From NCBI RefSeq assembly GCF_007991175.1, contig NZ_BJXV01000001.1:248001-312000 (forward strand): 64,000 nt of DNA, written 5' to 3'. Source of the DNA: Halovibrio variabilis. Its GTDB lineage: Bacteria > Pseudomonadota > Gammaproteobacteria > Pseudomonadales > Halomonadaceae. The notes beneath the pieces were generated by a model that was not told the DNA's origin, searched no databases, and saw nothing but the letters and a program-made list of their open reading frames with translations. Shown one piece after another: positions 32,328 to 43,076 of this stretch (positions within the stretch are counted from its first letter, which is position 1; every line of letters begins with the position of its first letter). Made by a program: the position numbers and the translations under genes.

Positions 32328-32582
32328 GGTGATCTCCTAGCCAAAGGAAACAGTTAGCAAAAAGAGCGTCTATCAACAAAAGACATTAGCAAGAGTTATG
32401 CCAATAACTCAGGGGCGTGAGAAATAGTGTTGTTTCTATTTTTTTAAGGCCTATTCAGTCTTTTTAGTGGTACTTTTAAAATAAATCCTAATAAATTTTA
32501 GTCACTGGCCGAAGAATGTCATAGACGCCATATATTTCGTTTCCGCTGCCGATGGTGTAGCAAATAAGGGGCTCCCAAGCAT

Positions 32583-34049
32583 ATGCAACACCCCTCTCGG
32601 GCGAATTCATCAGCGACGGTGACCAAGCTGCCCTGGCGCCATACGCTGGTAGGTAAGGTGGTGGTATTTATGCTGCTGGGGGTCATGTTTGCCTATTTAA
32701 TGGGCGCGTTGTCGGGTTTTTTAATGGTAGAGCGTGGCGCGCGCGAACAGTGGTGGCGTGAAGCGCAGGTCAATGCGCAGATCGTCAGTGCGACTATCCG
32801 GCGTATTTATACCTCTGTCGCCGTCAGTGCTGACGAAACGGGGCAGATCACCCATATTATCTCCCAGCGGCCGATTGGCGATGAGGAGTCGGTGCTTGAA
32901 ACGGGATTTAGTCCCGTTGATGTCCTGGCACTGGCCAGTGCCCAAACACGCAACAATGTGTGGCTGTTTGGAGCAACGCCGGAAGGCTCACTTGAGGTAG
33001 TGGCAGACGCCCTTAACGCTTCGCCGGGCTCGGTGATGACATTGACGGTGAATACTTGGCAATCAACAGCAGAGGCCTCTGACTTTTACGTTGGGTTTGC
33101 CCAGGTTGGGAGTCAAGAACACTTTATTAGCTCATTGCCTATTGTGACGCCTGACGGCCAGTTATTGGGCGTGGTTGTTTCCACCATTGGCCAGCGAGAA
33201 GCGCTTTATCAGATGCGTAATGATCTGATTGGTAACGCGTTAATGGCACTATTGGCGGTGTTGGTCGCCACTGCACTGATGCTAAGTATATTAATGCGCC
33301 ACCTCTTCAGGCCGGTACCCATATTGATTCGGGCGCTGGCGTCGATTGCCAAAAACCAGACACAAAGCCCCACGCCGTATACCACTCGCAACGATGAAAT
33401 TGGCCGAATGGCAAAGGCCATTGATGCCCTGCGTAAGAAGGTTATTGAGCGTGAACACCTGCTTGATGTAAAAGACGAAGCCCTTCGCTTTCAGCACCTT
33501 GCTCACCATGATGAGCTGACCAAACTGCCTAACCGTATACAGCTTAATGACGCTTTAAAAGCGGCAGAGCACTCACTGCTGCAAGGCGACATATTTAACG
33601 TCATGTTGTTTGACCTGGATTATTTTAAAGATGTGAATGATAGCTTGGGTCATGCGGTGGGTGATGCACTGTTGATAGACGTTAGCCAGCGGGTTCAGGG
33701 GTTACTGAAAGAAAACGATTTGGTGGCGCGTCTAGGCGGCGATGAATTTGCCATTATTCAGCGCGTCGCCGGCAGTACGCCGGAAGAGGAGGCCAAGGCG
33801 TTGGCGAGTGACATTGTTGCCACGCTAGGTGAGCCGTTTCAGATTGAGGCGCAAGACATCCAAATCAGCGTCAGCGTGGGTATATCCCGAGCTCCTGTCG
33901 ATGGTGACACCAGCTACGACCTGCTGCGAAACGCCGATATTGCGCTGTATGCGGCCAAGGCGAAAGGGCGCAACCGCTATATGCTGTTTGCCTCGGGGAT
34001 GAAGATGATGACGAATACTGTCAGGAGGGGGAAATCATGCCCTGGTTAG
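32583..34049 (+). CDS. membrane-bound diguanylate cyclase
   Basis: 488 aa: membrane helix at about 24-47, periplasmic sensor region (50-210, no family recognised), second helix (about 213-237), HAMP-like stretch, then a GGDEF domain (about 320-475) with intact ARLGGDEFAII. The RxxD feedback site expected five residues before the motif reads KEND, so product inhibition may be lost or altered. It makes cyclic di-GMP. The gene overlaps the next by 13 bases and forms a tight operon with two periplasmic binding proteins, so they may supply its signal. Confidence 0.9.
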   Translation: MQHPSRANSSATVTKLPWRHTLVGKVVVFMLLGVMFAYLMGALSGFLMVERGAREQWWREAQVNAQIVSATIRRIYTSVAVSADETGQITHIISQRPIGDEESVLETGFSPVDVLALASAQTRNNVWLFGATPEGSLEVVADALNASPGSVMTLTVNTWQSTAEASDFYVGFAQVGSQEHFISSLPIVTPDGQLLGVVVSTIGQREALYQMRNDLIGNALMALLAVLVATALMLSILMRHLFRPVPILIRALASIAKNQTQSPTPYTTRNDEIGRMAKAIDALRKKVIEREHLLDVKDEALRFQHLAHHDELTKLPNRIQLNDALKAAEHSLLQGDIFNVMLFDLDYFKDVNDSLGHAVGDALLIDVSQRVQGLLKENDLVARLGGDEFAIIQRVAGSTPEEEAKALASDIVATLGEPFQIEAQDIQISVSVGISRAPVDGDTSYDLLRNADIALYAAKAKGRNRYMLFASGMKMMTNTVRRGKSCPG

Positions 34050-34972
34050 TAGCTTTTATAGTCGGCATGTTGAGCTGGCATGGCGCCGCCTTGGGTGATC
34101 AGTTTTCCACCTCGCCGGTGCTGTCGCGTATCGCATTGAATGGCGAAATTAACGTTGGCCATCGTGCCAGCGAAGCGCCTTTTTCCTACGTGGCTAACGA
34201 CAAGCCGATGGGCTATGCGATTGACCTATGTTTGAACATCATAGAAGGCCTTCGCAAAGAGCTGGCGCTAGACGAGTTAACGATTAACTTTGTACCGGTA
34301 ACGCCTGCGAATCGGTTTATCTTAGTGCGCAATGGCCAAGTAGACATTGAGTGCGGTGTGACCACGAATACGCCCGAACGCCGCCGCCAAGCCGCCTTCT
34401 CTTACCCGCATTTTCTAACCGCCACACGTTATGTATCGCTCGCCGAGCAAAATATGCAAAGCATTGACGATCTGGCTGGCCGCAGCGTGGTGTCAACAAC
34501 AGGCACCATCAATATTGAACAGCTCAATCAACTCAACCGCCGCGAGGGTCTGAATATAGCGGTGATGTTGAGCCATAACCATGAAGAGGCCTTTGCCATG
34601 GTGGCGTCAGGTCAGGCGTCGGCATTTGTTATGGACGCTGTTTTGCTGGCGGGTTTGGTGTCAACCGCTACGGACCCTGGCATTTTCAATATCTCAGAAG
34701 CAGCGCTGAGCAATGCTGAACCGTATGGCTTAATGATGCCGCCTGATGATCCGGTTTTTGTTGAGCTGGTGAATAATAAACTACGTCACCTTTATCAAAG
34801 CGATGCTATTCTCCCCCTTTACGCGAAGTGGTTTTTGCAGCCTATACCGCCTGATGATCAGGTGTTGAGCTTGCCGTTAACGCCAGAACTGGCGGCGATA
34901 TTCGCTGATCCGTGTAGTTACCTGGACGATAGTTCCCTGGACGATAGTTCCCTGGATGATAATCTGGAGTAG
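34037..34972 (+). CDS. periplasmic amino-acid-type solute-binding protein (first of two)
   Basis: 311-aa SBP_bac_3 protein with a signal peptide (about 1-20). Landmarks: INVGHRASEAPFSYV, GYAIDLCLNI, and VDIECGVTTNTPERRRQAAF, as in glutamate/aspartate-binding GltI. AGGAGG lies 10 bases before ATG 34037, inside the diguanylate cyclase gene. No permease or ATPase gene is nearby. The C-terminus carries a repeated acidic tail (DDSSLDDSSLDDNLE) made by a 15-base tandem repeat. About 40% similar to the next protein by eye, so the two are duplicates. Confidence 0.85.
   Translation: MPWLVAFIVGMLSWHGAALGDQFSTSPVLSRIALNGEINVGHRASEAPFSYVANDKPMGYAIDLCLNIIEGLRKELALDELTINFVPVTPANRFILVRNGQVDIECGVTTNTPERRRQAAFSYPHFLTATRYVSLAEQNMQSIDDLAGRSVVSTTGTINIEQLNQLNRREGLNIAVMLSHNHEEAFAMVASGQASAFVMDAVLLAGLVSTATDPGIFNISEAALSNAEPYGLMMPPDDPVFVELVNNKLRHLYQSDAILPLYAKWFLQPIPPDDQVLSLPLTPELAAIFADPCSYLDDSSLDDSSLDDNLE
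34921..34965 (+). repeat. 15-base tandem repeat in the coding end of the first binding protein
   Basis: CCTGGACGATAGTTC occurs twice exactly (34921-34935, 34936-34950) and once degenerate (34951-34965). It codes for the repeated LDDSS units of the acidic tail. Since the unit is a multiple of three, copy-number change would alter tail length without a frameshift. Confidence 0.85.
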
Positions 34973-34984
34973 AGGAGCTGTGCG

Positions 34985-35869
34985 ATGCATAAAACAACAT
35001 CAATAGGATATTGCAGCCTACTGGCAATGGCGCTGAGTGGCGGCGCAGCGCAAGCAACGCCGCCGATTAATACCCTTGAACGGATAGAAGAAACGGCCAC
35101 ATTGCGCGTGGGCTATGGCGATGCAGCGCCTTTTTCCTACCTGGATAACCAGGGGCAAGTGGTTGGCTACTCCATCGATATTTGCCAGCGTTTAGCTAAG
35201 CAGCTGAAAGCAACCCTGGGACTTTCATCACTTGAAATCGCCTACGTGCCTCGTACACCCAGTAACCGGATTCAGCTACTTAACCGTGGCGATATTGACA
35301 TTGAATGCGACGCCAGCACCAACACCGTCGAAAGACGGCGTAGCGCGCTGTTTGCCCTGAGCCATTATTTCGTCACCGTGCGCTATGTGGCACTGCGCGA
35401 GAGCGGTTTGAAGACGTTGGCAGATTTGGCCGGGCAGAGCGTTAGCGTGGCGCGAGGCACCGTCAATGTTGGGCAAGTCAATCAAGCGAACCGAGAGCAG
35501 CGCCTATATTTATCGGTGGTGCCTGCCGATACGTTGCAAGAAGCGTTTGATTTAGTCACTGATGGCCGCGTCGCGGCCTTTGCGATGGACGATATTTTAC
35601 TCAGAGCGATGATTGCCGAATCGGAAAATCCCGATGCGTACACCGTATTCGCTGAGCCTTTAACAGCATCACAACCGCTTGGTTTTATGATGCGACTCGG
35701 TGATGACGCCTTTGCTGAGCAAGTCAACAAAGTCCTTCGTGCCATCTACACGAGCCCGGAGATGGAATCGATTTATGACCGTTGGTTTCATCAGCCGCTG
35801 CCAGGTAAAGGCATCACGCTTAACGTGCCAATGAGTGAGGCATTGGCTGACCACCTTAATCATCCATAA
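34985..35869 (+). CDS. periplasmic amino-acid-type solute-binding protein (second of two)
   Basis: 294-aa SBP_bac_3 protein with a signal peptide (about 1-24, ending AQA). It shares the pattern of its neighbour: LRVGYGDAAPFSYLDNQG, VVGYSIDICQRL, DIDIECDASTNTVERRRSAL and IYDRWFHQPLPG, but lacks the acidic tail. GAGGAG stands 7-8 bases upstream. Last gene of the cyclase-binding protein-binding protein operon. A lone pair of binding proteins next to a cyclase suggests sensing rather than transport. Confidence 0.85.
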   Translation: MHKTTSIGYCSLLAMALSGGAAQATPPINTLERIEETATLRVGYGDAAPFSYLDNQGQVVGYSIDICQRLAKQLKATLGLSSLEIAYVPRTPSNRIQLLNRGDIDIECDASTNTVERRRSALFALSHYFVTVRYVALRESGLKTLADLAGQSVSVARGTVNVGQVNQANREQRLYLSVVPADTLQEAFDLVTDGRVAAFAMDDILLRAMIAESENPDAYTVFAEPLTASQPLGFMMRLGDDAFAEQVNKVLRAIYTSPEMESIYDRWFHQPLPGKGITLNVPMSEALADHLNHP

Positions 35870-41267: not shown

Positions 41268-41384
41268 CTGTTTTCCCTGAAAGAATATTGGTTGATCTAA
41301 TGGTTTGTTGCTGATTTTTACTAGCTAAATTAGATAATAAAAATGCCAATAGTTAACGGAACTAACCTAAAGGTACTTTGCATT

Positions 41385-43076
41385 ATGAACCGTGTACTTA
41401 GTAACATCTCCATAAAAATGAGCTTGACGCTTGTTTTAGCTATCTTTTCGTTGTTGATTGTGGTTATTGCATTGCTTGGCTACCAGGCAGGTGAAGAGGG
41501 CAGTACTTCGTTGAAAGAGCTTGACTTGTCAGGTGATCGCACCCTGGCGCTCAGCCGTAGTCAACGATCTTTAGCTTATGCACAGCTTTTTTACATGAAT
41601 AGTTTTGATGCGGTTGAAAAGGGTGATGATCGTTCAGCCCGTGATTACCTGGAACGGGCGAAAAACTCTCGGCAGGTTGCACAAGATTATTATGCTGAAT
41701 TTGAAGCCACCGACCCTGAATCAGCGCTTGCTGGCTCAGTGATGACTGCTTACGACCGCCTAATGCAGCAGGGGCTTACTCCGTTAGAGGAGTCGTTAGA
41801 GGTGGGTAATGAAGCCGAAGTTAGCGATTTAAGAGAGACGGTTAGTGATTTAAACCAGCAATTAATAGAATCAATTAGCGCCTACAATGATCTTCGGGCT
41901 GAGCAAAACAAGCTAATGATTGCTGATTACGAAAGCGATATGCAGCTCCTCACCTATATTGATATCGCCGTTCTCTTCGTTGCTGCGTTAATCGTTCTGT
42001 TTGTGCGCATTGCCATGGTGGGGTCGATTGTAAAACCGCTGAATGAAGCGGTGGCGCACTTTGAGCGCATTGCCCAAAACGACTTATCGGGCAAGGTAAG
42101 TGACCGAGGCCGTAATGAGATCGGTAAGCTATTTAGCGCCATGCAGCATATGCAGAGCGGTTTAGCTAAAACCGTGTCTGATGTACGCAACAGCAGTGGC
42201 TCGATCCATGTTGGTGCAAGGGAAATTGCTAGCGGCAATGCGGACCTGTCCTCGCGTACTGAGCAGCAGGCCGCTTCGCTGCAAGAAACTGCCGCTAGCA
42301 TGGAGCAGTTAACCGCTACCGTTAAACAGAATGCCGATAATGCCCGTCAGGCGAGCCAGTTGGCAAACGATGCCTCTAGCACTGCCAGCAACGGTGGCGA
42401 AGTAGTTGAGCAGGTGATTACCACCATGCACGGTATTTCCAGCAGTTCGCAAAAAGTGTCGGATATTATTACTGTTATCGATTCTATTGCGTTTCAAACC
42501 AATATTCTGGCGCTTAATGCCTCGGTGGAGGCTGCGCGCGCCGGCGAACAGGGGCGTGGTTTTGCGGTTGTGGCCAGCGAAGTGCGTAATTTAGCGGGTC
42601 GCAGTGCCGATGCAGCCAAAGAGATCAAGGTGTTGATCGAAGCGTCGTCTACCCAGGTGAAAGAGGGCTCTGTACTAGTCGAAAGCGCCGGGGAAACCAT
42701 GCGTGAGGTAGTGTCGTCGGTGCGCCGCGTGACCGATATTATGGATGAAATTTCGGCGGCGTCTCAGGAACAGAGTTCTGGCATTGAGCAAGTTAACCAG
42801 GCGGTTGCCCAGATGGATGAGGTGACTCAGCAGAACGCGGCGCTGGTTCAACAGGCATCGTCAGCGGCAAGCTCGTTGGAAGAGCAGGCGGCCCGGCTGG
42901 AAAGCGTAGTGTCTTCATTTCGTTTAGCGGAAGGTGAGAGCCGCACGCAGCATGCCCCGCTAACCTCACCGCAGCACTCGCAACGACACTCATCTCAGCA
43001 ACAGGTAGCGCTTGTGCGGCCCGCGGCGCGTAGCCAAACCAGCCATAGCGTCGATCAAGAGTGGGAAGAATTCTAA
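41385..43076 (+). CDS. methyl-accepting chemotaxis protein
   Basis: 563 aa: membrane helix at about 12-32, periplasmic four-helix-bundle ligand domain (35-190; TarH-like), second helix (about 192-212), HAMP, and the MCP signalling domain. The hairpin tip contains [21 protein letters not shown] and [20 protein letters not shown], here given in part. The final residues EWEEF are the xWxxF pentapeptide that binds CheR/CheB. ATG 41385 gives the usual E. coli-like N-terminus; an in-frame ATG at 41343 is less likely. Preceded by a sigma-28 promoter and followed by a terminator. Confidence 0.93.

Follow-up and report, generated by a model that had tools for sequence, protein, structure and literature searches.

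Why would a gene for a diguanylate cyclase be followed by genes for two solute-binding proteins (SBPs), with no transporter encoded beside them? This question is raised by three genes at 32583-35869, on the forward strand, of a 64,000-nucleotide stretch of Halovibrio variabilis DNA (positions 248,001 to 312,000 of contig NZ_BJXV01000001.1), which is called the window below. The host is a Vreelandella/Halomonas genome, and its closest named relative, as judged by the cyclase, is V. boliviensis LC1 (92%). In the open reading frame (ORF) list of the window, the cyclase gene is followed by those of SBP1 and SBP2, all in the same direction. The cyclase and SBP1 genes overlap by 13 nt, and 12 nt separate SBP1 from SBP2, so close a spacing suggesting co-transcription. 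The original prediction, made from the letters of the window, had described the same layout and had noted that the two binding proteins have no permease or ATPase. The ORFs confirmed the layout, and no amino-acid permease or ATPase was found among the window ORFs, the flanking ones included, when their translations were read. Given that no transporter is encoded with the two SBPs, the trio seems suited to sensing nutrients and not to taking them up. We consider it probable that the three genes form a sensory operon without a transporter, in which SBPs gate a cyclase as in the NspS-MbaA, ArtI-STM1987 and ScrB-ScrC systems, but with two SBPs instead of one. The original prediction had proposed that the binding proteins touch the cyclase and set cyclic di-GMP (c-di-GMP) by nutrient state; this idea is plausible and emerges strengthened, its interpretation being partly supported.

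Linkage and spread of the three genes

The trio is one co-conserved unit. Among the 82 genomes of the genus, 19 contain a cyclase match (E<=1e-80) and 19 an SBP2-type match (E<=1e-40). The two lists of carriers are identical, and the genes lie side by side by coordinates in each, while at E<=1e-40 SBP2 finds no matching SBP in any of the 63 non-carriers. In a background control of 80 GGDEF loci, some of them short-flanked, an SBP of the trio profile adjoins 12/12 orthologous cyclases versus 0/68 other GGDEF loci (E<=1e-5), the profile having been built from the trio SBPs, so that other types of SBP would be missed. Given the adjacency in all 19 carriers and the outcome of this control, the linkage of cyclase and SBPs goes beyond chance. 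In the junctions compared across carriers, the gene order is constant and the overlaps or gaps are short. A look for the same trio in other genomes, as the original prediction had advised, thus returned 19 genomes of the genus and one Nitrincola, and a lack of conserved linkage is excluded.

More than one SBP match is present in 18 of the 19 carriers, the single match being that of V. stevensii (G182). G198 shows three matches because its SBP2 is split in that assembly. A search of the family (201 genomes, E<=1e-40) gave 20 genomes with a cyclase match. Thirteen of these are orthologues, all within the genus and one of them split (G010), and the remaining seven lie outside the genus and match mainly over the C-terminal HAMP-GGDEF part. 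Across the class, the SBP profile matched 8 of 369 genomes, two of which are trio carriers. The other six genomes contributed seven loci, and a motif scan found an ATP-binding cassette (ABC) ATPase signature on the SBP strand within ~3 kb at four of them (G549, G542, G339 and one of G456) and none at three (the second G456 locus, G521 and G276). As the motif scan detected no GGDEF motif at any of the seven loci, no second trio was seen among them. The GltI-like SBPs of G521 (L190 5938-6984) and G276 (L191 5983-6849), genomes from other families of the class, which have no ABC-ATPase signature in the fetched stretch (L190 ends at the contig end), may be orphans with other partners.

Thirty permease-side loci, drawn from 39 permease-matched genomes, were compared. 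The cyclase lies next to the permease in 12; 14 are empty sites, where TetR and membrane fusion protein (MFP) genes adjoin the permease and no trio is present; and 4 show neither arrangement. The trio is also present in G180, G069 and G047, where the neighboring permease gives no match. Outside the genus, Nitrincola sp. A-D6 has trio pieces that are 67-76% identical, with frameshifts in its assembly that we do not read as decay. This trio (L047 5968-11257) has a tricarboxylate-transport/aminotransferase cluster on one side and the end of glmS on the other (genes named from translations). The 3' end of glmS, beside which it lies, is known as the Tn7 attachment region. Given that the Nitrincola trio is this similar in a foreign neighborhood, though the best match to the window RND pump in that genome is 43% identical, the sequences point to the trio having moved as a cassette. 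The synonymous divergence (dS) between the window and V. boliviensis, which is 0.31-0.40 in the trio genes, 0.45 in the MFP gene to one side of them and 0.76-0.77 in codA/codB to the other, is likewise compatible with exchange.

Such patchiness, together with the foreign neighborhood and the frameshifts or deletions in some copies, would also suit a selfish or drifting cluster whose genes are not functionally coupled. In the one genome pair compared (window and V. boliviensis), the ratios of nonsynonymous to synonymous divergence (dN/dS) of the trio, 0.13, 0.16 and 0.19, are indeed above those of the neighbors codB (0.04), codA (0.05) and MFP (0.10). For this pair, however, ratios of 0.13-0.19 still show purifying selection on all three trio genes, and the gene order and short overlaps or gaps are the same in the junctions read, so that we give the selfish cluster scarcely any credence.

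The cyclase and its periplasmic domain

The alignments were made without the frameshifted or partial copies (L033, L047, L049, L123, SBP2 of L028 and SBP1 of L142) and without second copies of the same genomes. In the 16 cyclase orthologues aligned, the GGDEF catalytic motif is present in 15 and reads DGDEF in the remaining one, that of G047 (L036 7980-9422). The G047 cyclase may be inactive because DGDEF replaces GGDEF. The window cyclase has the intact motif in a full domain (Table 1) and is predicted to synthesize c-di-GMP. With 34 GGDEF matches at E<=1e-10 in the host genome, it is one of many cyclase-type proteins there.

At the primary inhibition site (I-site, RxxD), five residues before GGDEF, the window cyclase has KEND. 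The original prediction had taken this replacement to mean that the cyclase is not limited by its product. The arginine is missing from all 16 aligned orthologues, and the aspartate from three of them. Judged from the primary I-site motif alone, lack of product limitation is likely but not certain, because DgcY of Halomonas hydrothermalis, which is without a canonical I-site, has another feedback route (PMC12421958).

YfiN/DgcN is the best NCBIfam and PDB relative of the HAMP-GGDEF part. The full-length cyclase model matched the GGDEF structure of YfiN/TpbB (4iob) with a Z of 24.0, and the NCBIfam DgcN model scored 162 bits, against a cut-off of 325, covering residues 189-459 only. YfiR, the periplasmic partner of YfiN, is not known to be an SBP. 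The neighbors of the cyclase are the SBP, permease/deaminase and TetR/RND genes; a YfiR/YfiB arrangement was not seen among them by reading, no yfiR or yfiB model having been run there.

The original prediction had set the periplasmic domain at about residues 50-210, close to the sensor domain that was found (Table 1). Since GGDEF dominated the matches of the full-length model in the Foldseek/VIA structure search, the sensor domain was modeled and searched alone. The best AlphaFold 2 (AF2) model of it has a pLDDT of 87.4 and a pTM of 0.83 and forms a single domain. Its best PDB match is 8py1, a formate-bound chemoreceptor sensor domain (Foldseek E 2.1e-9, TM-score 0.70; VIA Z 17.3, rmsd 2.6 over 149 residues). 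Another formate-bound single-Cache domain, 8py0, follows with a Z of 13.2, and the next structural relatives are the citrate and dicarboxylate sensor domains of CitA and DcuS (Z 9.6-10.3). Among 16 sensor members, Pfam gave weak matches to sCache_3_3 in three and to sCache_3_2 in one (best E ~0.008). On the structural matches of its model, the periplasmic domain is predicted to adopt a single-Cache fold, and we propose it as the docking site of the SBPs or as a sensing site.

These structural relatives also suit a different reading, in which the Cache domain is itself the sensor of a small, formate-like carboxylate, and the linked pair of SBPs serves for scavenging or buffering without contacting the cyclase. 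In addition to the formate in 8py1 and 8py0 and the weak sCache_3_3 matches, a member of the sCache_3_3 family is described as binding formate in a chemoreceptor (PMC12415202). Yet direct sensing leaves unexplained why SBPs without a transporter are always linked to the cyclase, and we think it unlikely.

The two binding proteins and the search for partners

Both SBPs match Pfam SBP_bac_3 well above its cut-off of 26.4 bits (SBP1, 79 bits, 3.6e-22; SBP2, 89 bits, 2.6e-25). In NCBIfam, both score best against the model of the GltI subfamily, PRK10797 (194 bits for SBP1, 180 bits for SBP2), and the closest solved structure for both is the GltI chain 2ia4/2vha. The original prediction had called them GltI-like duplicates. 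A GltI-like ancestry is supported by these matches, while the PRK10797 scores stay under the cut-off of 375 bits and the full glutamate pocket is not kept.

In GltI, the glutamate side-chain carboxylate lies in contact with S72 and S27, and the change S72P shifts the preference to aspartate (PMC10942590, whose text and primers also served to place these two residues in the GltI numbering used here). T92, R97 and D182 are kept in 30/30 trio SBPs, and by the comparison in PMC5431781 they probably hold the amino-acid backbone. On the other hand, S72 and S27 are both replaced in 30/30, S72 by proline throughout and S27 by glutamate in SBP1 and by alanine in SBP2, where the alignment near position 27 has a one-residue gap ambiguity. 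SBP1 retains R24 and H164 and has S90 replaced by valine. In SBP2, the changes R24 to G, I70 to R, S90 to A, T91 to S and H164 to L are each found in 15/15. Among the five outside relatives in the alignment, that of G549, beside an ABC ATPase, has the full GltI residue set; one of the two in G339 has P72 and A27; and those of G521 and G276 have E27 and A72. Because the outside relatives share some of the changes, no single one is diagnostic. Given that the amino-acid-binding core is kept but the side-chain pockets differ, the sequences suggest that SBP1 and SBP2 bind two differing amino-acid-like ligands, neither of them plainly glutamate. The earlier idea that two SBPs would allow two ligands thus gains from the predicted pockets, whereas a Glu/Asp-type ligand is weakened, since the side-chain pocket for glutamate is incomplete in both SBPs.

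The SBPs might instead serve a distant ABC permease by promiscuous loading, the operon merely co-regulating uptake and c-di-GMP. It is known that one permease can be served by several SBPs, and transporter-linked GltI proteins are among the nearest relatives outside the genus. The host genome contains eight SBP_bac_3 matches: the two of the trio, four in transporter operons and two in long proteins (C3, 468 aa; C12, a 498-aa ORF or 505-aa open frame), which by length look like MltF-type or other long proteins. The four operons each comprise their own SBP, one or more PAAT permeases and an ATPase (ATPases recognized from translations), and all six over-cut-off PAAT permease matches fall within them. 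Two further PAAT matches (C16 and C9), weak and under the cut-off, were not counted among the six and could be set to the credit of a distant permease. Three of the six permeases have cystine permease as their best NCBIfam model and the other three have HisQ, HisM and GlnP, all under cut-off, with GltK as a lower-ranked match only, in five of the six. No distant orphan permease that could partner the SBPs was found among the six over-cut-off hits, each of which lies in an operon with its own SBP. Given that all four PAAT loci have their own SBP and ATPase and that GltK is only a lower hit, a shared distant permease is not indicated. The original prediction had named such a permease as the finding that would speak against it; with the trio SBP type also missing from the 63 non-carriers at E<=1e-40, we regard this explanation as quite improbable.

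Elsewhere in the host genome, an SBP-permease-ATPase amino-acid operon (C1:411010-415422; L222 3511-7923) is convergent with the gene of a 655-aa GGDEF-EAL protein that has a putative N-terminal periplasmic region. By analogy, this protein and the operon could be an ArtI-STM1987-like pair, ArtI being an SBP of arginine transport.

A chemoreceptor is the other conceivable partner, instead of or besides the cyclase. Homologues of methyl-accepting chemotaxis proteins (named from translation) are encoded directly after SBP2 in V. boliviensis (L038 9618-11333) and V. neptunia (L026 11464-13145), and at 41343-43076 in the window. In the window and in several carriers, however, the chemoreceptor gene lies beyond the RND genes, whereas the cyclase is the invariant neighbor, and signaling to a chemoreceptor appears to us very improbable.

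To compare the SBPs with the sensor domain, mirror-tree correlations were computed over 13 of the 16 aligned genomes, as partial correlations after removing GGDEF distances, with 2000 permutations. SBP1 distances follow those of the sensor domain (partial r 0.59, 0/2000 permutations). This hints at co-evolution between SBP1 and the sensor but is no more than a hint, because such permutation tests of partial distances are liberal. Which SBP matters is a point on which the evidence is mixed, as SBP2 is more widely kept, being the copy present in all 19 carriers (frameshifted in G198), and SBP1 tracks the sensor.

Several observations weigh against an SBP-gated cyclase with two inputs. Apart from the elevated dN/dS and the liberal permutation tests, SBP2 distances do not follow those of the sensor domain (partial r 0.01, 934/2000 permutations). 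The linkage was found almost only in one genus, and the sensor profile matches 2 of 369 genomes sampled across the class, both within the genus. The other four AF2 models of the sensor were unconfident (pLDDT 73, 66, 59 and 53), and the Cache domain might itself bind a small ligand. The SBPs are presumably secreted, and the N-terminus of the window SBP1 (34037-34100, beginning with MPWLV) is without the positive charge that signal peptides usually have. Finally, SBP1 is absent from V. stevensii and ~36 aa shorter in V. neptunia, which indicates that two SBPs are not always needed.

The variant copies of SBP1 deserve description in their own right. V. boliviensis SBP1 begins with MHWLA and several orthologues with MKWL, and because of the latter the predicted signal peptide of the window SBP1 appears to have lost its positive charge. 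In V. neptunia (L026 9454-10236), the ~36 residues are gone between two PPD(D/N) repeats, by in-frame deletion or assembly collapse. The lone SBP of V. stevensii (L037 7064-7993 / L048 7388-8317) is of the SBP2 type and occupies the place of SBP1, which looks like the outcome of a recombination between the two tandem copies.

As named from translations, the trio is flanked by a divergent cytosine/purine-type permease and a deaminase on one side and by a TetR/RND cluster on the other. The conserved AT-rich block (Table 1), which lies in the intergenic stretch from which the permease and cyclase genes diverge, is possibly a promoter or regulator site of either gene. A sigma-70 promoter and terminator scan gave no excess over shuffled sequence.

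Table 1. Positions of the trio genes, the cyclase domains and motifs, and the upstream block in the window
Feature	Position	Strand	Details
Conserved AT-rich intergenic block	32440..32500	.	9 upstream regions aligned, nine genomes
Diguanylate cyclase gene	32583..34049	+	488 aa; transmembrane helix, periplasmic single-Cache-like domain, transmembrane helix, HAMP, GGDEF
Periplasmic sensor domain, predicted single-Cache fold	32721..33230	+	residues 47-216, between two transmembrane helices
HAMP linker	33291..33440	+	residues 237-286; Pfam 23.5 bits, under cut-off 25
GGDEF domain	33501..33977	+	residues 307-465; Pfam 150 bits, 4.8e-44, full-length match
KEND at the primary inhibition site (RxxD position)	33708-33719	+	orthologue alignment
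GGDEF motif, intact	33735-33749	+	inside GGDEF domain
SBP1 gene, GltI-type family-3 solute-binding protein	34037..34972	+	311 aa
SBP2 gene, GltI-type family-3 solute-binding protein	34985..35869	+	294 aa

A probable binding-protein gate and its known counterparts

In the SBP-gated cyclase that we favor, two secreted amino-acid-type SBPs would bind different small ligands in the periplasm. The ligand-closed (or ligand-free) SBPs would then attach to the single-Cache domain of the cyclase in the membrane, and this contact would be relayed via the second transmembrane helix and HAMP, so that the GGDEF dimer makes more or less c-di-GMP. Since the primary motif for product inhibition is missing, the cyclase is probably controlled chiefly from the periplasm, like YfiN by YfiR. 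A more elaborate version, which we put forward tentatively and consider doubtful, is a split two-input (possibly three-input) gate. SBP1 and SBP2, with different ligands, would compete or cooperate for one Cache domain with a possible small-ligand pocket of its own; the cyclase, without primary product feedback, would report the ratio of two nutrients; and the whole gate would spread as a three-gene cassette.

A minimal cassette, with empty sites in sister species, would allow a direct test of SBP-Cache communication, and also a test of whether two binding proteins give ratio sensing. The trio is also a caution that resemblance to GltI does not always make a family-3 SBP a transport protein.

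Systems of this kind are already known, and what we judge to be new is the combination of features: two separate GltI-type SBPs without a transporter, a single-Cache cyclase without the RxxD arginine, and a cassette with empty sites. In the portions of the open-access literature surveyed, this combination was not recognized, and c-di-GMP enzymes gated by separate binding proteins were few. Binding of SBPs to receptor domains is described as general and widespread (PMC9602780). In the NspS-MbaA system of Vibrio cholerae and Sinorhizobium meliloti, a periplasmic SBP reports its ligand to a membrane c-di-GMP enzyme (PMC8967002; PMC9993111). The trio likewise has SBPs without their own transporter that are co-encoded with the enzyme, the contact being proposed here by analogy. 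However, MbaA has both GGDEF and EAL and is served by one polyamine SBP, whereas the trio has GGDEF only, two family-3 SBPs and a single-Cache domain. In Salmonella, the amino-acid SBP ArtI is required for the response of the periplasmic Cache domain of the cyclase STM1987 to L-arginine (PMC8846402). The domain of STM1987 is a dCACHE_1 according to the same source, while the trio cyclase is predicted to be single-Cache, with its SBPs encoded beside it and no transporter. In the ScrA-ScrB-ScrC operon of Vibrio parahaemolyticus, control of a c-di-GMP enzyme lies with a periplasmic binding protein (PMC10269520), but ScrC is bifunctional and the scrA product makes the signal, a gene of which the trio has no counterpart.

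YfiN (DgcN/TpbB) has no I-site and is held by periplasmic YfiR (PMC10127611). The trio cyclase resembles it in the HAMP-GGDEF part and in the missing arginine of the primary I-site. It differs in that its proposed partners are SBPs and in that the DgcN model remains far under its cut-off and covers only part of the protein. In CdgH of Vibrio cholerae, two binding modules, one preferring Arg/Lys/Orn and the other Gln/His, serve one cyclase (PMC5431781). The modules of CdgH are fused to the cyclase, whereas the trio would be a split version, with separate SBPs and an extra Cache domain.

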